DNA of 64,000 nucleotides, from the NCBI RefSeq assembly GCF_003150675.1, contig NZ_QGGB01000010.1, forward strand, positions 124,001 through 188,000, in the 5' to 3' direction. Within the stretch, counting starts at the first letter, position 1. Each line of letters opens with the position of its first letter. A program made the translations under genes and the position numbers. The DNA comes from Rhodohalobacter mucosus. GTDB taxonomy: Bacteria > Bacteroidota > Rhodothermia > Balneolales > Balneolaceae. Under the pieces are notes generated by a model. The model had not been told where the DNA came from and searched no databases. It saw only the letters and a program-made list of their open reading frames with translations. Positions 4,220-54,732 of this stretch are shown here, in pieces.

Positions 4220-5512
4220 ATGAATAATCCTGCTCCATCCATCCGCGAAAATCAGCGCATCCCTCTGCGCAAATCTGCGAGAAAGAGTTCAAAGGCTACT
4301 ACACTCATCAGATTTAGCTTATTCGTGCTGCTCCTATTTTCGGTTTCATGCAGCAATCCAGTGGAGGATGAACCAGATTTCGCTCAGCTTGAATGGGACG
4401 AGATCAGGGAGCTTTCGGAGGGCGAAGATCTGACACTGATGATGTGGATGGGGGATCCCTATATCAACGGCTACATGAACGATTACGTGGTGCCGGAGGT
4501 GAAAAACCGCTACAATATTGACCTGAATATTGTGAGCGGCCAGGGTGCCCAGATCGTCTCCACCCTGATGGCTGAGATCGAAGGCGGAACCCGCACCAGT
4601 CAGATTGACCTTGTCTGGATAAACGGGGAGACCTTCTTTCAGCTGCGGCAGATTGATGCGCTCTATGGCCCATTTACCGGTATGCTTCCCAATTCAACGT
4701 TCGTCAATTACGATAACCCGTTTATCGGAACCGACTTCCAGCAGCCCGTTGACGGGTATGAAGCGCCCTGGGGCAATGTTCAGTTCACATTGATTTACAA
4801 TCCCGGTCAGGTAAACTCTCCTCCCCAGACATTTCAGGATTTCGAAACCTGGATCGTTACTAATCCGGGACGCTTTACCATACCCACCGAATTTGCCGGA
4901 ATGACCCTTCTCAAATCATGGATGATGACACTCAATGGATCTCCCGAACCGTTTTACGGTGATTTTGATGAGGAGCTCTATAAATCGGCCAGCAGGGAGT
5001 TATGGGATCGTCTGAACAGGCTGAAACCCTACTTTTGGCGTAATGGAGAGACCTTTCCGGCAAGTGTGGCCCAGATGCATCAACTCTTTGCAAACGGGGA
5101 AATATCATTCACCATGAGCAACAACGACGGTGAAGTCGATAACAAAATTGCCCGGGGTTTGTTTCCTGAAACCAGCCGCGCATACGTTCCGGAACACGGC
5201 ACGATCCGGAATTCACACTACCTGGGCATTCCCCGGAAATCCGCACATAAAGCAGCGGCCCTTGTGGTCATTAACTTTTTGCAATCGCCCGAAGCTCAAC
5301 TTGAAAAAATGAAACCGGATGTTTGGGGCGACGGAACCGTGCTCTCCATACCCGATCTGCCGGAAGGGTGGCAACAGAGGTTCAGCCGGATTCCCGGAAG
5401 AGTACAAGCCCCCGACCGCTCTGAGATTCGTGAAAGAGCTCTGCAGGAACCGGGGCCCGAGTATATGATCCGTATCTTTGAGGACTTCAGAACCTATGTG
5501 GTAAACCGCTGA
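4220..5512 (+). CDS. ABC transporter substrate-binding lipoprotein, YnjB-like
   Basis: The 430-residue protein is a periplasmic extracellular solute-binding lipoprotein related to E. coli YnjB. A hydrophobic segment ends in the lipobox FSVSC with the lipidated cysteine at residue 44. The segments DLVWINGETF near residues 130-139 and ALYGPF are characteristic of the YnjB group. It sits 2 bases upstream of two permease genes and an ATPase, forming an importer operon. The substrate of YnjB-type systems is not established. The N-terminal 25 residues before the signal peptide are unusual: they are encoded by word-like DNA (ATCCGCGAAAATCAGCGC and CTGCGCAAATCTGCGAGAAA) resembling intergenic repeats. 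No other good start codon precedes the signal peptide, so the repeat seems to supply the start. Confidence 0.82.
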   Translation: MNNPAPSIRENQRIPLRKSARKSSKATTLIRFSLFVLLLFSVSCSNPVEDEPDFAQLEWDEIRELSEGEDLTLMMWMGDPYINGYMNDYVVPEVKNRYNIDLNIVSGQGAQIVSTLMAEIEGGTRTSQIDLVWINGETFFQLRQIDALYGPFTGMLPNSTFVNYDNPFIGTDFQQPVDGYEAPWGNVQFTLIYNPGQVNSPPQTFQDFETWIVTNPGRFTIPTEFAGMTLLKSWMMTLNGSPEPFYGDFDEELYKSASRELWDRLNRLKPYFWRNGETFPASVAQMHQLFANGEISFTMSNNDGEVDNKIARGLFPETSRAYVPEHGTIRNSHYLGIPRKSAHKAAALVVINFLQSPEAQLEKMKPDVWGDGTVLSIPDLPEGWQQRFSRIPGRVQAPDRSEIRERALQEPGPEYMIRIFEDFRTYVVNR

Positions 5513-5514
5513 GT

Positions 5515-6357
5515 ATGTCTAAACGTAAACTAATGGTCGCTCTCTTTGCCATTGCCTGGCTTGCTCCCCTGGGTATGGCAATCGGCTACTCTTTTTTATA
5601 CAGCCTTGGATTGGCGGGAGTGCTTCAGGATGGGTTCACTTTCTCATATTGGGCCGGTCTTTTTCAGGGTGAGTTTCTGCAGTCTATTCTCTACTCTGCA
5701 TGGGTTGCCGGGGCATCCACTATTTTGGTACTGCTTACCTCCCTGGGAATGCTTTTTTTATTTCGCAGGCAGTTCAGCAACCGAACTATATACAACAGCC
5801 TGTTCCTGCCGCTTGCCATCCCGCCCATCGTGCTGGCGTTTTCTATCTATCAGCTTTTGTCCGGTTCGGGGCTTCTCTCCCGCGCTGCATACCATATGAA
5901 CCTGATCACCGAAGCAAGCCGGTTTCCGGCACTTGTTCAGGATCCGTGGGCAATCGGCATTATCCTGGCACACCTGTTTCTCGTTTTCCCATTCTTTCTT
6001 CTCATTTCCCTGAAACTGTACGAACATCAGAAGCTTGAGGAATTGGGCAGGGTCGCTTCAACACTTGGGGCATCAACCGGAACCATTCTTTTTCAGGTGC
6101 AGCTGCCAATCCTCCTCAGGGGTCTTTCCCCGCTGATCGCACTCTATTTTATTTTTTTTATGGGCGCCTACGAAATACCACTGATCCTGGGAGAGTCCTC
6201 ACCACAGATGATTTCGATCCTGATCCTTGAAAAATTGCAGCGTTTTAACCTGGCAGATATCCCGGTGGCCCACTCAATGGCGGTCTGGTACGCTATTCTT
6301 TGTATAGCCACTATAGCCTGGCTTTTTTCAGGGTCCCAAAAGAAGGTGTTCGTATGA
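5515..6357 (+). CDS. ABC transporter permease, first half of a YnjC-like pair
   Basis: The 280-residue protein is an integral inner-membrane permease with about six hydrophobic segments. A cytoplasmic EAA-type loop near residue 175 (EELGRVASTLGAS) is the segment that docks with the ATPase. Its start lies 2 bases after the stop of the binding protein, and its stop overlaps the next permease start in an ATGA, so translation is coupled. In E. coli YnjC the two permease halves are fused in one chain; here they are separate genes. It works with the binding protein, the second permease and the ATPase as one importer of unknown substrate. Confidence 0.85.
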   Translation: MSKRKLMVALFAIAWLAPLGMAIGYSFLYSLGLAGVLQDGFTFSYWAGLFQGEFLQSILYSAWVAGASTILVLLTSLGMLFLFRRQFSNRTIYNSLFLPLAIPPIVLAFSIYQLLSGSGLLSRAAYHMNLITEASRFPALVQDPWAIGIILAHLFLVFPFFLLISLKLYEHQKLEELGRVASTLGASTGTILFQVQLPILLRGLSPLIALYFIFFMGAYEIPLILGESSPQMISILILEKLQRFNLADIPVAHSMAVWYAILCIATIAWLFSGSQKKVFV

Positions 6358-7130
6358 AAAAGCTCACCGTTCTCCTGTTTTTGCTGCTCAGTTTCCTGGT
6401 ACCCGTCGCAACGCTGCTCTACCTCTCCTTTTCAGTGCAGTGGTACTACCCCTCCATCATCGATCATCCGTTTACCACCGAACACTGGACGTGGTACCTC
6501 AGCGGCGGCTCTGAGCTTCTGAGGAGTACGGTTCTTTCGGTCCTTCTATCCATCACAGTGAGTGCACTTTCCGTAATCTGCGGATTTTTCGCCAGCCGGG
6601 CCATCGCCTACTATACCAGGAGCCGCTGGTGGGTGGTTTCAGCTTATTTTCCCTATGTTATTGCTCCGGTTGTTCTGGCTGTGATGCTTAACTACTATTT
6701 TTTGCAGCTACAGTTGTCGGGTACCGTTGGCGGCGTTATCATTGCACAATTTTTAATAACATTTCCCTATGCCATTATCTTTTTTTATGGCTTCTGGAAC
6801 ACGGAGATGCGTAATCTGGAGGGTCTGGTTTCAACCATGGGCGGTAGTTTTTTTACCATCGTGAAGCATGCACTGTTTCCTTCGGCGAGGGGACTGCTCA
6901 CCATCTGCTTTTTTCAGTGCTATCTGATATCCTGGTTTGAATACGGGCTGACTCAGTTTATCGGCGTAGGCAAAGTGCAAACACTCACTGTTATGGTTTA
7001 CAGATATGTTAGCGAGGCTAATCCCTATCTGGCTGCTCTTGCAGGTGTTTTGCTGGTCATTCCGCCTGTTCTGCTTCTGATCACAAACCGGAAATATCTC
7101 CTTCAAAACGTATGGGCACCGCAGTCATGA
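6354..7130 (+). CDS. ABC transporter permease, second half of a YnjC-like pair
   Basis: The 258-residue membrane protein has six predicted transmembrane segments and an EAA-like loop (NLEGLVSTMGGSF) near residue 160. The ATG at 6354 was chosen because it overlaps the preceding stop as ATGA and begins with a lysine-flanked signal-anchor (MKKLTVLLFLLL); an in-frame start further upstream would overlap the previous gene heavily. Its own stop overlaps the ATPase start in another ATGA. The protein should form the heterodimeric membrane channel with the first permease. Confidence 0.85.
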   Translation: MKKLTVLLFLLLSFLVPVATLLYLSFSVQWYYPSIIDHPFTTEHWTWYLSGGSELLRSTVLSVLLSITVSALSVICGFFASRAIAYYTRSRWWVVSAYFPYVIAPVVLAVMLNYYFLQLQLSGTVGGVIIAQFLITFPYAIIFFYGFWNTEMRNLEGLVSTMGGSFFTIVKHALFPSARGLLTICFFQCYLISWFEYGLTQFIGVGKVQTLTVMVYRYVSEANPYLAALAGVLLVIPPVLLLITNRKYLLQNVWAPQS

Positions 7131-7849
7131 TGATTGAAGCACGCGGCATATCGAAATCATACGGCAATGAAAAGGTTCTGCAGGATGTAAGCTTTTCACT
7201 TTCGGAGAACGAAACGCTCTCCGTACTGGGCAGGTCAGGCAGCGGCAAGACCACCCTACTTAAAATCTTTGCAGGACTCACACAGGAATATACGGGAACC
7301 ATTCAGCTTAACGGTCAGGCGATCGACAACCTGAAGCCCAGCGAGCGCGGAATGGTCTATCTCTACCAGGAGCCGCTTCTGTTCCCGCATCTTACCGTGA
7401 GTGAGAACATTGGGTTTGGCCTCAGAATCCAGGGATATGATGACAAAACTATTCGTATTAAGACAGGTGAAATGATTGAGCGGCTGCACATACAGGGGCA
7501 GGAGGAAAAGTATCCGCATCAGCTATCCGGCGGGCAGAAACAGCGTGTAGCTTTTGGCCGGGCATTTATCATACACCCGCGCGTACTGCTTCTGGATGAA
7601 CCCTTCGGCAGTCTGGATCCGGAAACGCGAAGCGAAATGCAGCAGCTCTTTGTGGAGATTTCAAAAAGTGAAAAAATCACCACTATGTTTGTGACACACG
7701 ATCTTAAAGAAGCGCTGATTACCGGTACACGGTTCGGTATGATGATAAACGGATCATTGAATGTATACGATAATCACGATGATTTTATCAATGATGCCCA
7801 AACGGGCGTTCAGGATGAATTGACATTCTGGAAAAATCTGATGCGATAG
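7127..7849 (+). CDS. ABC transporter ATP-binding protein, YnjD-like
   Basis: The 240-residue cytoplasmic ATPase powers the importer encoded just upstream. It has a Walker A motif GRSGSGKT at residues 35-42, the signature LSGGQKQR at 133-140, a Walker B LLLDEP at 154-159 and the switch histidine in FVTHD. Starting at 7127 gives an ATGA overlap with the permease stop, matching the other junctions in this operon; an ATG five codons earlier is possible. The set of binding lipoprotein, two permeases and ATPase is complete. No regulatory C-terminal domain is present. Confidence 0.88.
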   Translation: MMIEARGISKSYGNEKVLQDVSFSLSENETLSVLGRSGSGKTTLLKIFAGLTQEYTGTIQLNGQAIDNLKPSERGMVYLYQEPLLFPHLTVSENIGFGLRIQGYDDKTIRIKTGEMIERLHIQGQEEKYPHQLSGGQKQRVAFGRAFIIHPRVLLLDEPFGSLDPETRSEMQQLFVEISKSEKITTMFVTHDLKEALITGTRFGMMINGSLNVYDNHDDFINDAQTGVQDELTFWKNLMR

Positions 7850-7985
7850 AGCCGTTTTTAGATTAAAATCATTGTGAAGGAATTAATCATAATTCTCACA
7901 CAAGCACCTTTTCATAGATATCCGAGTTTTCAACGTGGAAATAACGTTTTGATTCCAGGAATGCATAAAACTTTTTTTTAACCAC

Positions 7986-8804
7986 ATGACAGATTCCAAA
8001 AAGAGAAAAGCCGGACCTAAAAGCCTTGGTATCATTCTGGGCAGCGCATTCGAAAATGAATTTGCATCAAAACTTATGCTTGAGCCTGAAGTGGCAGATA
8101 CTCCATGGGGCCGAATAACCCTGTTCAGTAGCGGGCTCAGCAACGACAGGCCCGTCTATATTTTGTTCCGTCATGGCCTGCCTCACTCCCTTCTACCCAA
8201 CCAGATCAACTATCGTGCCCAGGCCGCCGCACTTCAGCAGGTAAACTGTGGCGCTCTTCTTATCAACAGTTCTGTCGGCGTGCTCGACCCCGACCTGCCC
8301 ATCTACAAGCCGATGCTTGTAACGGATTTGCTGATGCCCGAAAACAGGCTGCCGGACGGCTCCACGTGTACCATGTATCCCGAACCAAAGGCTCATCAAG
8401 GCCATCTTTTGATCCGGGAGGGTCTCTTTTCACAAAGCCTCAATGAACAGATCTCTGCACGACATCCCGGATCTATTTTTAAACCCGAAAACGGTCTGGT
8501 CTTCGTCTATGCAGGCGGTCCGCGCAGCAAAACAGCTGCCGAAAACAGGATGTGGGCACAGCTTGGGGGTCAGGTCAACTCCATGACCCTGGCACCCGAA
8601 GTGGTATTGGCCAATGAACTCGAAATTCCGGTCTCAGCCCTGGTGGTCGGGCATAAATATTCAGTTCCCGGCAGAATTAACCCGGAGGTCCGGAAGATTG
8701 CGGAAACCCTTGTTGACGCTCGCGAAGCCACGGAGTCCATCCTCCTTGACTTTATAGAACACGGGGAGCCAGTAGTATTTGCCAACCAAATTTACCGCTA
8801 TTGA
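7986..8804 (+). CDS. Nucleoside phosphorylase of the MTAP/PNP family
   Basis: The 272-residue protein has the trimeric phosphorylase fold: GIILGSAFE near residue 15, the phosphate-site segment FRHGLPHSLLPNQINYRA around 62-79, and MTLAPEVVLANE in the C-terminal half. These match the S-methyl-5'-thioadenosine phosphorylase (MTAP) and purine nucleoside phosphorylase family, which cleaves nucleosides with phosphate to free base and pentose-1-phosphate. The base-recognition segment is odd. Where human MTAP has TDYD and human PNP has TNK, this protein reads GHKYS, with lysine at the deciding position. The base preference is therefore not assignable, and MTAP is a best guess from overall similarity. 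It lies 136 bases after the importer ATPase and one base before the kinase gene. Confidence 0.72.
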   Translation: MTDSKKRKAGPKSLGIILGSAFENEFASKLMLEPEVADTPWGRITLFSSGLSNDRPVYILFRHGLPHSLLPNQINYRAQAAALQQVNCGALLINSSVGVLDPDLPIYKPMLVTDLLMPENRLPDGSTCTMYPEPKAHQGHLLIREGLFSQSLNEQISARHPGSIFKPENGLVFVYAGGPRSKTAAENRMWAQLGGQVNSMTLAPEVVLANELEIPVSALVVGHKYSVPGRINPEVRKIAETLVDAREATESILLDFIEHGEPVVFANQIYRY

Positions 8805-8805
8805 G

Positions 8806-9864
8806 ATGGCCCCCGACAGGAATCAAATTTTCCGTTTTGTTCAGAAGTGTCTGCCTGATTTTGAACCAGCCGGGAGCCCCGAAGAGCTGATCGGAGGCAA
8901 TATAAACCGGGTCTGGCGCATACCGGGAGATTCGGACAGTGTAATTGTAAAGTACGCCCCACCCTACATTGCAGCCAGTCCCGATGTTCCAATGAACAGT
9001 AACCGGCTTTCGTTTGAAGCACGGGCTCTTGGCAGTTTTATGCAGTCAGGCCCGCTATCCGGAATTGACCAAACCTATGTTCAGCCTCCGGAGCTGCTCG
9101 GGCATGATACCGATGCCAGCCTGCTTCTGATGGAGGATATCACACCCTCAGTTCCATGGTTTGAGGCACTCAGAAAAGGCCGTGCTGAGATTGAGACGGC
9201 GAGGGATCTGGGCCGATTTATCGGTGCGCTTCACCGCATCACATACGGACAACCTGCTATCGCCGGGCAATTTCACAATATGCCGGTTCAGGAGACGAGA
9301 TATCACGTTCAGTATATGTCACTGGCAGAAACGCTCTCAAAAAAAGATGATCCTGATTTTCGTTCGGCGGCCGAACGATGCAGACAGCTGGGCAGGCTGT
9401 TAATGAAACAGGGGCGTTGCCTTCTGATGGGAGATCTATGGCCGCCTTCACTTCTCTGGAGCAGAAACAAAATCAGAATTATCGATTGGGAATTTGTTCA
9501 CTACGGAAGGCCGCTGCAGGATCTGGCCCATTTTTGCGCACACTGTATGATGCACCATGCTGTGGCATCGGCTGGAACCAGGGATCTGTTTACCGATATC
9601 TGGGGCCGTACCATGAATGGGTACAAAAGAGAAACATCACAACTGTATCAGGAGTTAATAAACGGAGATGAGATCGAGTGGTTTTCCGTACATGTAGGAG
9701 CTGAGATCCTTGCACGCACGATCGGGGCTTTTTCACAGGGTTATCTTTTTGAGGACCCTAAACAACGCATGGCCCGGGAAAAAATCTCAGAAGAAGCCGT
9801 GAAACTGATGGCGGGAAACGTAGTGTTCAACAAACATTTATTTTTGAGAATGTTATATAAATAA
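8806..9864 (+). CDS. APH-fold phosphotransferase with altered catalytic loop
   Basis: The 352-residue protein has the aminoglycoside phosphotransferase fold: a glycine-rich GGNINRVWR loop at 30-38, a lysine in IVKY at 46-49, a catalytic-loop GDLWPPSLLW at 209-218 and a metal-binding IDWEF at 226-230. The usual HGD is MGD, and the usual asparagine five residues after the aspartate is serine, while both aspartates are kept. The family phosphorylates small hydroxylated molecules. Because it follows the nucleoside phosphorylase by one base, a sugar or nucleoside substrate such as a methylthioribose-like compound is possible but unproven. The ATG at 8806 is preferred over a TTG nine codons earlier that would overlap the phosphorylase. 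Confidence 0.7.
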   Translation: MAPDRNQIFRFVQKCLPDFEPAGSPEELIGGNINRVWRIPGDSDSVIVKYAPPYIAASPDVPMNSNRLSFEARALGSFMQSGPLSGIDQTYVQPPELLGHDTDASLLLMEDITPSVPWFEALRKGRAEIETARDLGRFIGALHRITYGQPAIAGQFHNMPVQETRYHVQYMSLAETLSKKDDPDFRSAAERCRQLGRLLMKQGRCLLMGDLWPPSLLWSRNKIRIIDWEFVHYGRPLQDLAHFCAHCMMHHAVASAGTRDLFTDIWGRTMNGYKRETSQLYQELINGDEIEWFSVHVGAEILARTIGAFSQGYLFEDPKQRMAREKISEEAVKLMAGNVVFNKHLFLRMLYK

Positions 9865-40465: not shown

Positions 40466-41779
<1,314 letters not shown>

Positions 41780-41792
41780 GGAGAGGTGTGCC

Positions 41793-42914
41793 ATGGCCAC
41801 CGTTGAACCGGAGTCCAAGCTGTTTCACGCAACCTATCGCTTTACCGCAGATGACATCGGGGCGGCTGAACAGATTGCTGATTCCATCTGCCTGGAGCAG
41901 TCTGTGGAAATGCCGCGCGATGCCGTTCCCGATCATGTCTCATCATCCATTGCTCAGCTTCTGTCACTATTCCCTTCCAGTGATAACCTTTGGTCTGCAA
42001 CCATCGGCTACCCCCTTCATCTTTTTGATGATGATCCAACCCAGTTTCTGAACGTGATTTTTGGGAACATCTCCCTTCAGCCCGGAATACAGCTAATCGA
42101 TCTGGAAAAAGATAAGCTCCATGGGGTGCTCCCGGGCCCATCATTCGGCATCCAAGGCATCCGGGAGCTTTCCGGTGTTTCTGACAGGCCACTAAGCTGT
42201 ACCGCACTCAAGCCCGTGGGATTATCACCCGATGAGCTTGCATTGCGCGCAGAACAGTTTGCAGCAGGCGGATTGGACATCATAAAAGATGATCATGGCC
42301 TTGCAGATCAACAGAGCGCCCCGTTCTCGGCGCGAGTAAAGGCTTGCGTATCGGCAATTGAAAAAGGAATGCAGAAAAGCGGCAAGAGAACACTCTATTT
42401 TCCAAACATTACAACCACCCCCAACCGGCTTATGGATCGGTATCGGGAAGCTGCTGATTGCGGTGCAGACGGTGTTCTGGTTTCTGCCCAGCTCTGCGGA
42501 CCCGCCATTATGAAGGAACTTGCAACGATTGGTGAGCTGCCGGTAATAGCACATCCCTCATTTTCAGGATCCATGGTTGTAAGTCACTCTCAGGGGATCG
42601 TTGCCCCGCTCTACTTTGGAACCCTCTGGAGAGCGATGGGAGCTGATTTTATCATCTATCCAAACGCAATGGGCCGGTTTTCTTTCACTGTTGAACAGTG
42701 TATGGATATAAATGAACATTGCAGGCAGAATATTGAAGGCATAAAAAGTGCATTTCCGGTGCCCGGAGGCGGAATAAACAGAGACACTGTACCGGAGTGG
42801 ATGAACAAATACGGCCGGGATACCGTTTTTCTGATAGGCGGGAGCTTGTATCAGCACCCAGAGGGCCTGCAGTTCGCTGCAGCTGAATTTCAACAAAGAT
42901 TACGGAATACATGA
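41793..42914 (+). CDS. RuBisCO-like protein (form IV)
   Basis: The 373-residue protein is a form IV RuBisCO-like protein, shorter than true RuBisCO (about 470). Recognisable parts are TALKPVGLSPDELA near 137-150 with one of the two loop lysines, and GGLDIIKDDHGLADQ near 158-172 with the carbamate lysine and metal aspartate. The glutamate after KDD is histidine. Further parts are IAHPSFSG, PNAMGRFSF and PVPGGGINRDTVP. The changed residues rule out carbon fixation. The Rhodospirillum rubrum relative isomerises 5-methylthioribulose-1-phosphate in the methylthioadenosine-isoprenoid shunt. The overlap with a cupin gene supports that reading. It is less like the Bacillus MtnW enolase group, but clade placement needs a tree. 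Confidence 0.85.
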   Translation: MATVEPESKLFHATYRFTADDIGAAEQIADSICLEQSVEMPRDAVPDHVSSSIAQLLSLFPSSDNLWSATIGYPLHLFDDDPTQFLNVIFGNISLQPGIQLIDLEKDKLHGVLPGPSFGIQGIRELSGVSDRPLSCTALKPVGLSPDELALRAEQFAAGGLDIIKDDHGLADQQSAPFSARVKACVSAIEKGMQKSGKRTLYFPNITTTPNRLMDRYREAADCGADGVLVSAQLCGPAIMKELATIGELPVIAHPSFSGSMVVSHSQGIVAPLYFGTLWRAMGADFIIYPNAMGRFSFTVEQCMDINEHCRQNIEGIKSAFPVPGGGINRDTVPEWMNKYGRDTVFLIGGSLYQHPEGLQFAAAEFQQRLRNT

Positions 42915-43363
42915 AAAACAGATCCAGGATAATAAAAGCGGACGGTTTTACATGGAAAGGTGTGGAGCGGAAAGAGTACAAAACCGGTACCAGCAATTTC
43001 AAGGGGGTCCATCGCTATTCACTTTTGGGTGACGAAACAGAGGAACTGAATTTTCACAGCAGGTATTTTGAAATCCGGGACGGGGGTTATTCAAGCCTGG
43101 AGCAGCACCGGCATCCGCACAGTGTTGTGATTATCAGGGGCAGTGGTTCGCTGATCCTGGACAATGAAATTCATCATCTCGCACTTCATGACGTCATATT
43201 CATCTCTCCGGATACCATCCATCAGTTTCATGCCGACAAAGGTGAACCTCTCGGTTTTCTGTGCATGGTAGACCGATACCGTGATAAACCGGTTATACCT
43301 GATGATGATGCCATCCAAAACAGGATTACAGACAGGAAGGTATTACAGAAAATCAGAAAATAG
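42911..43363 (+). CDS. Cupin protein, probable partner of the RuBisCO-like protein
   Basis: The 150-residue single-cupin protein begins inside the last codons of the RuBisCO-like gene (ATGA overlap). The metal-site histidines are in QHRHPHSVVIIRGSG near residues 61-75 and in SPDTIHQF near 96-103; the usual glutamate of cupin motif 1 is not seen. In Rhodospirillum rubrum a manganese cupin (methylthioxylulose 5-phosphate methylsulfurylase) acts after the RuBisCO-like protein to release methanethiol and form 1-deoxyxylulose-5-phosphate. This protein is a candidate for that step. The translational coupling strengthens the idea, but the cupin fold alone gives little functional precision. Confidence 0.72.
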   Translation: MKNRSRIIKADGFTWKGVERKEYKTGTSNFKGVHRYSLLGDETEELNFHSRYFEIRDGGYSSLEQHRHPHSVVIIRGSGSLILDNEIHHLALHDVIFISPDTIHQFHADKGEPLGFLCMVDRYRDKPVIPDDDAIQNRITDRKVLQKIRK

Positions 43364-43395: not shown

Positions 43396-43411
43396 TACAG
43401 TCTTGATAAAA

Positions 43412-43552
43412 GCGGGAATAGCTCAGCCCTCCTGCGTCCGGAAATTCCCGGACTTCAAAGGGTAAATGGTAGAGCATCCCGACGTCTCGGGACCAAGGTC
43501 GGGGTCGCACCCAGCCGGACCGATTGACATACTGTTTTTTGTACCAACTTTA
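43412..43552 (+). pseudogene. tRNA-Gly-like degenerate unit 1, with D-loop insertion
   Basis: The unit starts like the intact tRNA-Gly (GCGGGAATAGCTCAG) and then has a 40-base insertion in the D-loop. The insertion can fold (CCCT...AGGG outside, TCCGG...CCGGA inside). It resumes at TGGTAGAGCA. The anticodon arm is replaced by TCCCGACGTCTCGGGA, and the T-arm and 3' acceptor strand are missing, so it cannot be a working tRNA. The rest is the spacer shared by the next units. Confidence 0.7.
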
Positions 43553-43653
43553 GCGGGAATAGCTCAGTGGTAGAGCATCCCGACGCCTCGGGACCAAGGT
43601 CGGGGTCGCACCCAGCCGGACCGATTGACATACTGTTTTTTGTACCAACTTTA
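43553..43653 (+). pseudogene. tRNA-Gly-like degenerate unit 2
   Basis: This 101-base unit has the intact tRNA's first 25 bases, the palindrome TCCCGACGCCTCGGGA in place of the anticodon arm, then CCAAGGTCGGGGTCGC shared with the real tRNA. It diverges into CACCCAGCCGGACCGATTGA and a T-rich spacer. There is no T-arm or 3' acceptor strand. Confidence 0.75.
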
Positions 43654-43754
43654 GCGGGAATAGCTCATTGGTAGAGCATCCCGACGTCTCGGGACCAAGG
43701 CCGGGGTCGCACCCAGCCGGACCGATTGACATACTGTTTTTTGTACCAACTTTA
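43654..43754 (+). pseudogene. tRNA-Gly-like degenerate unit 3
   Basis: A 101-base unit nearly identical to unit 2. The changes are GCTCATTGG in the D-arm, TCCCGACGTCTCGGGA in the anticodon position and one base in AAGGCCGGGG. The palindrome is kept. No T-arm or 3' acceptor strand is present. Confidence 0.75.
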
Positions 43755-43856
43755 GCGGGAATAGCTCAGTGGTAGAGCATCCCGAAGTCTCGGGACCAAG
43801 GTCGGGGTCGCACCCAGCCAAACCGAGTGACATACTGTTTTTTTGTACCAACTTTA
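43755..43856 (+). pseudogene. tRNA-Gly-like degenerate unit 4
   Basis: A 102-base unit like the previous two. The palindrome is TCCCGAAGTCTCGGGA, with one arm mismatched. The unit ends CCAAACCGAGTGACATACTG plus a T-run one base longer, then directly abuts the intact tRNA gene. Confidence 0.75.
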
Positions 43857-43931
<75 letters not shown>

Positions 43932-43940
43932 TTTATTAAA

Positions 43941-43977
43941 AAGCTCAATTCGTGTACTCATGGATTGAGCTTTTTTT
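43941..43977 (+). terminator. Terminator after tRNA-Gly
   Basis: AAGCTCAAT and ATTGAGCTT form a 9-bp stem followed by a T-run (TTTTTTTATTTT). It ends about 20 bases before the GIY-YIG start codon, leaving no room for a normal promoter between terminator and gene. Confidence 0.8.
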
Positions 43978-43997
43978 ATTTTAAGTAATCAAGAGAC

Positions 43998-44264
43998 ATG
44001 TATTACGCATACATTATCTACAGCCCTTCCAGAGATACCTACTACAAAGGACACACCTCACTGACGCCGCAACAACGACTGGAGCGTCATAACGATCAAT
44101 GGACTGTTTCAACCAGGTCCGGAATTCCATGGGACCTGACGTTTTACAAGTCATTCGAAACCAAAACCGAGGCCATTCGCTATGAACTATTCCTGAAGAA
44201 ACAGAAGAACCGGGCCTTCATAGAATCCCTTATCTCGTCCAGGGAAAATGAATTTACTCAATAG
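43998..44264 (+). CDS. GIY-YIG nuclease family protein, copy 1
   Basis: The 88-residue protein is a single GIY-YIG domain of the UPF0213/YhbQ type. The active-site parts are YYAYIIYS near the start (the GIY strand), YYKGHT near 16-21 (the YIG part), the catalytic-type arginine in QRLERHND near 27-34, and the glutamate in RYELFLKK near 60-67. The family belongs with structure-specific or homing-type nucleases, although many small members have no known target. It lies right after the tRNA-Gly terminator. Its stop codon TAG is bases 8-10 of the next tRNA-like copy, so the ORF end was set by duplication. Confidence 0.82.
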   Translation: MYYAYIIYSPSRDTYYKGHTSLTPQQRLERHNDQWTVSTRSGIPWDLTFYKSFETKTEAIRYELFLKKQKNRAFIESLISSRENEFTQ

Positions 44265-44337
44265 CTCAGGGGCAGAGCATCCCGACGCCTCGGGACCAAG
44301 GTCGGGGTCGCGGGTTCAAATCCCGTTTCCCGCTCCA
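44254..44337 (+). pseudogene. Hybrid tRNA-Gly-like copy downstream of the GIY-YIG gene
   Basis: The 3' half from CCAAGGTCGG to CCA is identical to the intact tRNA-Gly. The 5' part carries the palindrome TCCCGACGCCTCGGGA of the degenerate units, and the first seven bases (TACTCAA) no longer match the acceptor strand. It looks like a recombinant between a degenerate unit and the intact gene, and should not fold as a working tRNA. Confidence 0.75.
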
Positions 44338-53137: not shown

Positions 53138-54238
53138 TCACCGTGAATTCCGGATCAGCTCAAAAAGCTCTTTTGCGACCTGCATTCCAATTGCAATACC
53201 CATTCCGCTGAGACCGGCCGCCGCGTACACTCCCGGTTTTATCTCATTGATATAAGGCTCCTTATCTGCGGTAATTCCCATAATACCGCTCCATTCCACA
53301 TCGATCTCCCATTCGGGCGGTAATTTTATTACATCATTGGCAAAGCTCAGGAGGTACTCTTTAATAACGGGATTGATCCCAAAGCGATCGGTCGTTTCCT
53401 CCTCAACAGCCAGGTTACGAGCCCCTCCAAGAAGCAGACGGTTATCTACATTTCGAAAATAGACATACCCCCTGTCGTGGTTAAATGTGCCCTTCCACCC
53501 AAGATCTGCAATCGGTTTTGTGATGAAAACATATCCCCGCGCAGGCTTTACGGGTAAACCGACCAGCGATTCTGCAAAGCCATTTACTGCCACAGCGATT
53601 TGTTCGGCCTGAATGCCTGTATCGTTGTCAAGGTGTGCCACTCCTGAATCAATCGATTCTACACGTGTATTCCACCAAATTCGAACGCCCGCCTTCTGTA
53701 TTTTTTGATGAAGGGTACGCATCATTTTGCCGCTGTTGATCGCGCCTTCCACGTGATTGTGTATTGCCGGATAGCCCATGTATTCCCTGCGGGAGTACAC
53801 ACTTTCTATTCCCAGCCGTTCATGCAAAAGCGTATTCATTTCATCCAGTCTGCCGGAGCACTCCGCAAGTAATTCATTATCGGTAAAGATTTCATAACCT
53901 CCAGAATGGATATACCCCATCTCCCCAGCTGCAAGTGTTGACCTGAGAAGGTTCAGGCCGTTCCACCTCCGTTCGATCCTCTTCAGCACGGTCTCTTCAC
54001 CGGCTTTCTGCATGTCGGAAAGATGTTCTGACAGTGACCCTATACATGTAAAACCCGCATTCCGTGTGCTGGCACCCTCGGGTGCAACACCTTTTTCAAC
54101 AATCAAGACATCGTGCCCGGGGAAAGCTTTTTTATAAAACAGGGCAAGTGATGCCCCCACAATTCCGGCTCCAACAATCAGCAGGTCGGGTTTTTTAAGC
54201 CACTCTTCACGTTCCCAGAAAGAAAATGTTCTGTTCAT
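53138..54238 (-). CDS. FAD-dependent oxidoreductase, DAO family
   Basis: The 366-residue flavoprotein has LLIVGAGIVGASLAL near residues 19-33 as the FAD-binding glycine motif, followed by DVLIVEKG. It belongs to the glycine/D-amino-acid oxidase (DAO) family; the C-terminal AAGLSGMGIAIGM is the second flavin signature. The substrate is unknown, likely an amine or amino acid. The ATG at 54238 was chosen because it overlaps the stop of the WbuC-like gene in an ATGA, rather than an earlier in-frame ATG. Confidence 0.82.
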   Translation of the reverse strand: MNRTFSFWEREEWLKKPDLLIVGAGIVGASLALFYKKAFPGHDVLIVEKGVAPEGASTRNAGFTCIGSLSEHLSDMQKAGEETVLKRIERRWNGLNLLRSTLAAGEMGYIHSGGYEIFTDNELLAECSGRLDEMNTLLHERLGIESVYSRREYMGYPAIHNHVEGAINSGKMMRTLHQKIQKAGVRIWWNTRVESIDSGVAHLDNDTGIQAEQIAVAVNGFAESLVGLPVKPARGYVFITKPIADLGWKGTFNHDRGYVYFRNVDNRLLLGGARNLAVEEETTDRFGINPVIKEYLLSFANDVIKLPPEWEIDVEWSGIMGITADKEPYINEIKPGVYAAAGLSGMGIAIGMQVAKELFELIRNSR

Positions 54239-54732
54239 GGATACTTTCCTTTTTTTGATAGCCATTCAGCTGCCTCCAAACTGCCCTCGGCAGGTGCCCA
54301 ACTCGCAAATACCTTATCGGTATCTGCATCATACGGACCCTTTTTGCACTCAAATAATACAGTATCCTTTTCAAGCACCAGAAAAGAGTGCCATATGCCC
54401 GGTTCTATATCAGTGATACCCGGAAACGGAGCGAAAGATATAATTCTGTCGGTCTGCGGACTTCCTGAATCATTAAACGTAAAAAAACGGATTTTGCCTC
54501 TCAGCACGACAATCGATTCGGTGGCATGCGGCATGGGATGCATATGAGGCCGGATGTACGTACCGGGCTGTAAAAAATTGATTAACCGCTGAACCTCTGC
54601 GTCCTGTTCTCTGTGAAGCGGCAGAATGATTCTCAGCCGATCGCTTCTACGCGATGCCTGCAGCCCCTCCTCCATCTGTTTCTCTTCCAGAAAAAAAACA
54701 TCCCCTGAAGGGTTTTCAAACGCTTGCTTCAT
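54235..54732 (-). CDS. WbuC-family cupin-fold metalloprotein
   Basis: The 165-residue protein has a single cupin domain. Metal-ligand histidines lie in RPHMHPMPHATES near 61-73 and the domain closes with GIWHSFLVLEKD near 112-123. The overall form matches WbuC, usually found in O-antigen clusters, where its role is unknown. Here it is translationally coupled to the DAO oxidase by an ATGA overlap, with no other glycan gene in the neighbourhood. It starts right after the toxin-antitoxin pair. Confidence 0.75.
   Translation of the reverse strand: MKQAFENPSGDVFFLEEKQMEEGLQASRRSDRLRIILPLHREQDAEVQRLINFLQPGTYIRPHMHPMPHATESIVVLRGKIRFFTFNDSGSPQTDRIISFAPFPGITDIEPGIWHSFLVLEKDTVLFECKKGPYDADTDKVFASWAPAEGSLEAAEWLSKKGKYP

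Follow-up and report, generated by a model that had tools for sequence, protein, structure and literature searches.

Candidate methylthioadenosine-isoprenoid shunt encoded by a RuBisCO-like gene and a cupin gene in Rhodohalobacter mucosus

The closest described counterparts of the genes analysed here are those of the methylthioadenosine (MTA)-isoprenoid shunt of R. rubrum (RuBisCO-like protein Rru_A1998 and cupin Rru_A2000) and R. palustris (RPA2169 and RPA2170). Rru_A2000 is the R. rubrum enzyme that converts 1-methylthioxylulose-5-phosphate (MTXu-5P) to methanethiol and 1-deoxyxylulose-5-phosphate (DXP) (PMC4958253). A second reference system is MtnW, the DK-MTP-1P enolase of Bacillus and Geobacillus, which shares with our protein the RuBisCO fold, the carbamate lysine, the metal aspartate and a connection with methionine salvage.

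We analysed a window of 64 kb from the 3.9-Mb genome (97% complete) of Rhodohalobacter mucosus, which contains genes of the same two families in the same neighbourhood as in R. rubrum and R. palustris. The conserved residues of the cupin are also shared with these organisms, as is the presence in the genome of mtnA and the entry genes of the MEP pathway. Unlike in R. rubrum and R. palustris, the pair occurs in another phylum, purA comes first in the likely operon and the RuBisCO-like protein belongs to a well-supported branch of its own within Balneolota.

A conserved purA, RuBisCO-like and cupin locus

The genes of the locus are the following.

40496..41779, + strand: purA, adenylosuccinate synthase (616 bits)
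41793..42914, + strand: DeepYkr-group RuBisCO-like protein, candidate 5-methylthioribulose-1-phosphate (MTRu-1P) 1,3-isomerase (373 aa; PF00016; best PDB match 3qfw)
42911..43363, + strand: cupin, candidate MTXu-5P methylsulfurylase (150 aa; matches 3jzv, 3kgz and 3ibm)

The RuBisCO-like gene (Pfam RuBisCO_large, E 3.4e-23) and the cupin gene (Cupin_2, E 9.8e-7) share the four-base overlap ATGA reported in an earlier note on this DNA, and the gap between purA and the RuBisCO-like gene is 13 nt. Judged by consensus matches only, a terminator-like hairpin lies upstream of purA (40468-40491) and no strong one occurs in the intergenic spans of the three genes, of whose operon purA is likely the first.

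Both genes are on one strand and at most 200 nt apart in 41 of the 51 loci that hold them, overlapping in 22 of those 41. The genomes G061, G089 and G092 retain both at a distance of about 5 to 12 kb. In a wider locus set, the gene immediately preceding the RuBisCO-like gene is purA in 37 cases, and the order purA, RuBisCO-like gene, cupin gene is conserved across Balneolota. We also examined a sample of 118 Bacteroidota-phylum genomes, counting the DeepYkr-type gene at E 1e-42 or better; it was present in 15 of them, and the cupin in exactly those 15 and none other. This co-occurrence and the conserved arrangement of the locus indicate that the pairing is not due to chance. The distribution is patchy within Balneolaceae, which probably reflects repeated joint loss of the two genes.

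In the region 43411-44311, four tandem 101-nt units begin like the tRNA-Gly gene at 43857-43931 and lack its 3' part, another tRNA-like copy occurs near 44260, and two copies of a 300-nt stretch carrying a GIY-YIG-like ORF occur at a spacing of 406 nt (43890 and 44296). A second cupin in the window (54235-54732) is unrelated and belongs to the WbuC family (124.9 bits, cut-off 42).

Phylogenetic placement and conserved residues

The closest solved relative of the RuBisCO-like protein was PDB 3qfw (E 1.7e-62, nearly full length), which we take to be R. palustris RLP1. MtnW enolases ranked behind it as structure matches (E 1.4e-50), with the N-terminal domain left out of the match. A phylogeny against MtnW had been set beforehand as a check: a maximum-likelihood tree, built from 103 sequences, placed our protein in a 95-row clade together with 3qfw (support 100/98). 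The three MtnW sequences grouped by themselves outside this clade (100/100), and the sequences of Photo, OiaX and form I lay farther out than MtnW. Within the 3qfw clade, the Balneolota proteins and those of R. palustris are on separate branches, and the substrate may therefore have shifted. A single clade for the cupin-bearing RuBisCO-like proteins is compatible with the data (AU p 0.66).

The following positions were located in the two genes.

42066..42068, + strand: codon of Asn92, at the MtnW catalytic base Lys98 (N in 98/98 DeepYkr-group rows, K in 3/3 MtnW rows)
42210..42212, + strand: codon of Lys140, aligned with RuBisCO Lys175 (K in every row)
42285..42296, + strand: codons of K165-D166-D167-H168 (the carbamate Lys and the metal Asp are conserved; the second metal Glu is replaced by His)
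43100..43120, + strand: cupin motif 1, E64-x-H66-x-H68-x-H70, candidate metal ligands (53/53 sequences, identical in Rru_A2000)
43220..43222, + strand: cupin motif 2 His104, candidate metal ligand (53/53 sequences)
43262..43264, + strand: invariant cupin Cys118 (53/53 sequences, also Rru_A2000)

Lys98 acts as the catalytic base in the Geobacillus MtnW enzyme. The second metal ligand is His in 98/98 DeepYkr-group rows and Glu in the MtnW, OiaX, Photo and form I rows, and the window protein thus combines the carbamate Lys, the Asp, the His in place of the second Glu and the Asn in place of the MtnW base that make up the DeepYkr active-site pattern. The KDDHG motif, which had been noticed before and attributed to the R. 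rubrum group, is present (K165, D167, H168) and is general to the DeepYkr group. From its placement and residues, the RuBisCO-like protein is a member of this group and a candidate MTRu-1P 1,3-isomerase.

The best solved relatives of the cupin were 3ibm (E 2.5e-33), 3kgz (E 6.8e-27) and 3jzv (E 1.2e-22), the last of which is named Rru_A2000 in the PDB. Residues E64, H66, H68, H70, H104 and C118 showed no variation among the 53 homologues collected and are the same in Rru_A2000; TM1459, a manganese cupin that is less closely related, departs from this set at E64 and H68. Since it matches a characterised enzyme and retains all the candidate metal ligands, the cupin is a candidate MTXu-5P methylsulfurylase, in agreement with its earlier assignment.

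A proposed route from MTA to isoprenoids

The sequence evidence makes it very probable that the pair encodes the two core enzymes of an MTA-isoprenoid shunt. The route would start with phosphorolysis of MTA to methylthioribose-1-phosphate, which MtnA, encoded elsewhere in the genome, would convert to MTRu-1P. The RuBisCO-like protein would then shift protons between C1 and C3, giving MTXu-5P, and the metal cupin would move the methylthio group onto a low-molecular-weight thiol, leaving DXP; both reactions are extrapolated from homologues that have been characterised (PMC5893883, PMC4958253). DXP would enter the MEP pathway via Dxr, and methanethiol would be returned to methionine. The R. rubrum cupin uses glutathione, and the thiol cosubstrate is expected to differ between lineages (PMC6302742).

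The first step of the shunt can be taken by an MTA phosphorylase (MtnP) or by MtnN together with MtnK, and one candidate for it lies in the window.

7986..8804, + strand: MTAP-like nucleoside phosphorylase (MTAP best NCBIfam model, 97 bits against a cut-off of 275)

The nucleoside phosphorylase that the earlier note had placed elsewhere in the window therefore exists, but it is MTAP-like only, scoring below the family cut-off. It is the best of three MTAP-family matches in the genome, all below that cut-off, as compared with two such genes in most sampled Balneolaceae, and none of the 118 sampled genomes contained an MTAP above it. One of the other two matches in the genome, a nucleoside phosphorylase on contig C5, was rejected as the MTAP, since it scores as a purine nucleoside phosphorylase above the cut-off of that family. 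The MTAP-like gene overlaps an MTR-kinase-like gene (8779-9864; 73 bits, cut-off 275), and the region 4220-9864 comprises ABC transporter genes followed by these two genes.

The genome search for mtnA and dxs, which the note had called for, recovered both (444 and 822 bits, respectively) as well as dxr (436 bits), and mtnA was found in 15/15 genomes carrying the pair. In neither the window's genome nor any Balneolota locus examined is mtnA adjacent to the pair; its neighbours in R. mucosus are acyl-CoA dehydrogenases and ribonuclease D, with no pathway genes. The shunt first put forward as a candidate is thus supported by a RuBisCO-like protein outside the MtnW clade, a cupin resembling Rru_A2000 and the presence of mtnA, dxs and dxr.

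The same proteins could catalyse the same order of steps mainly on another sugar phosphate, for example 5-deoxyribulose-1-phosphate derived from 5'-deoxyadenosine, which would give DXP directly with no need for a cupin. The chemistry would presumably be identical, and in the DHAP shunt the salvage of MTA and of 5'-deoxyadenosine share kinase, isomerase and aldolase (PMC6079011, PMC10986504). Nevertheless, we consider this unlikely, because a deoxy substrate needs no cupin and the strict pairing in Rhodothermia with a methylsulfurylase-type cupin points to a methylthio substrate.

A replacement of Dxs by the shunt has been raised for a few species (PMC10663253), and the shunt could serve here mainly as a DXP-supply route. 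The Rhodothermia families f3, f6 and f8 bear the shunt and lack dxs while keeping dxr, and the dxs-less genomes checked in the 118-genome sample (G003, G008, G030, G050, G058, G085, G096 and others) retain dxr. Such a general replacement in Rhodothermia looked promising in that sample but was rejected on class-wide counts: 107 of 244 Rhodothermia genomes had no dxs match at E 1e-100, yet the cupin, too, is missing from 92 of these 107, and 67 of 82 cupin genomes possess dxs, indicating that the loss of dxs does not track the shunt. For R. mucosus this reading is very improbable, and since its own genome contains dxs, the shunt would add to the supply of DXP, not replace it.

Finally, a reading of the RuBisCO-like protein as an MtnW-type diketo-methylthiopentyl-phosphate enolase of aerobic methionine salvage, and of the cupin as an acireductone dioxygenase or other oxygenase, is hardly credible and was rejected on the tree, the residues and the absence of mtnB: the top NCBIfam models are indeed MtnW, but their scores are far below cut-off (230.6 bits against 409 and 194.4 against 513.6), the MtnW rows form their own clade, Lys98 and the second metal Glu are replaced, mtnB, maker of the enolase's substrate, had no match in the window's genome, and the cupin groups with Rru_A2000.

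A sister clade with split transketolase and the wider distribution of the probable shunt

Outside the window, 32 of 43 related loci from beyond Balneolota, two rhizobial plasmids included, contain a split transketolase, which in nearly all 32 is immediately upstream of the RuBisCO-like gene. The RuBisCO-like proteins of these loci fall within a 41-row group in the 103-sequence tree (support 99/99), with hosts among Clostridia, Nitrospirota, Spirochaetota, Chloroflexota, Thiotrichaceae, rhizobial plasmids and an Asgard archaeon. A whole-genome search found a window-type cupin in only 4 of the 41 genomes behind them. The order mtnK-mtnA-TKN-TKC-RLP occurs on Pararhizobium and Ensifer plasmids, in Clostridium ljungdahlii, C. 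drakei and an Anaerosolibacter, and on a Lokiarchaeota contig.

L104:1685-7116: mtnK-mtnA-split transketolase (two genes)-RuBisCO-like operon; also in L035, L037, L043, L075 and L103

In several loci these relatives have mtnA or mtnK as a neighbour, which ties the RuBisCO-like family to methylthioribose metabolism. The two transketolase subunits, which have no counterpart in the window, resemble the split-chain transketolase of Carboxydothermus hydrogenoformans (PDB 6yaj/6yak); that enzyme was studied with hydroxypyruvate and aldehydes, and we found no link to methylthio sugars there (PMC7661550). MTXu-5P, the expected product of the RuBisCO-like protein, differs from xylulose-5-phosphate in bearing SCH3 instead of the hydroxyl at C1, and would be a plausible donor for a split transketolase. 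We tentatively suggest, as a possibility short of a firm expectation, that the clade represents a shared MTRu-phosphate isomerase module with two outlets, either the cupin, yielding DXP and methanethiol, or the split transketolase. The latter would cleave MTXu-5P (or DXP from 5'-deoxyadenosine) to glyceraldehyde-3-phosphate and a two-carbon unit and, if so, would constitute an undescribed branch of MTA or 5'-deoxyadenosine salvage. A literature search, with subscription papers outside its scope, found nothing relevant on RuBisCO-like proteins with transketolase or with 5-deoxyribulose.

In one Firmicutes member of the split-transketolase clade (L064:5430-7110), the gene immediately before the RuBisCO-like gene encodes a cupin (37% identity), and there is no transketolase nearby, suggesting that the partner of the RuBisCO-like protein can be exchanged.

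The earlier expectation that the pair would extend the shunt beyond Proteobacteria holds in that the pair is found here, but this is not new in itself, because Meiothermus is already listed among the organisms with both homologues in similar order (PMC4958253). The pathway is known and has been proposed outside Proteobacteria before; what Balneolota add is an unusually clear record of its inheritance. If the pair does function as the core of the MTA-isoprenoid shunt, oxygen-independent recycling of MTA to methanethiol and an isoprenoid precursor would not be peculiar to purple bacteria, and the shunt would be an old, mostly vertically inherited trait of Balneolota and some other Rhodothermia. 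Fodinibius, with F. halophilus as one strain that carries the pair, would then provide cultivable hosts, and the question would arise of which thiol the cupin uses where glutathione is missing.
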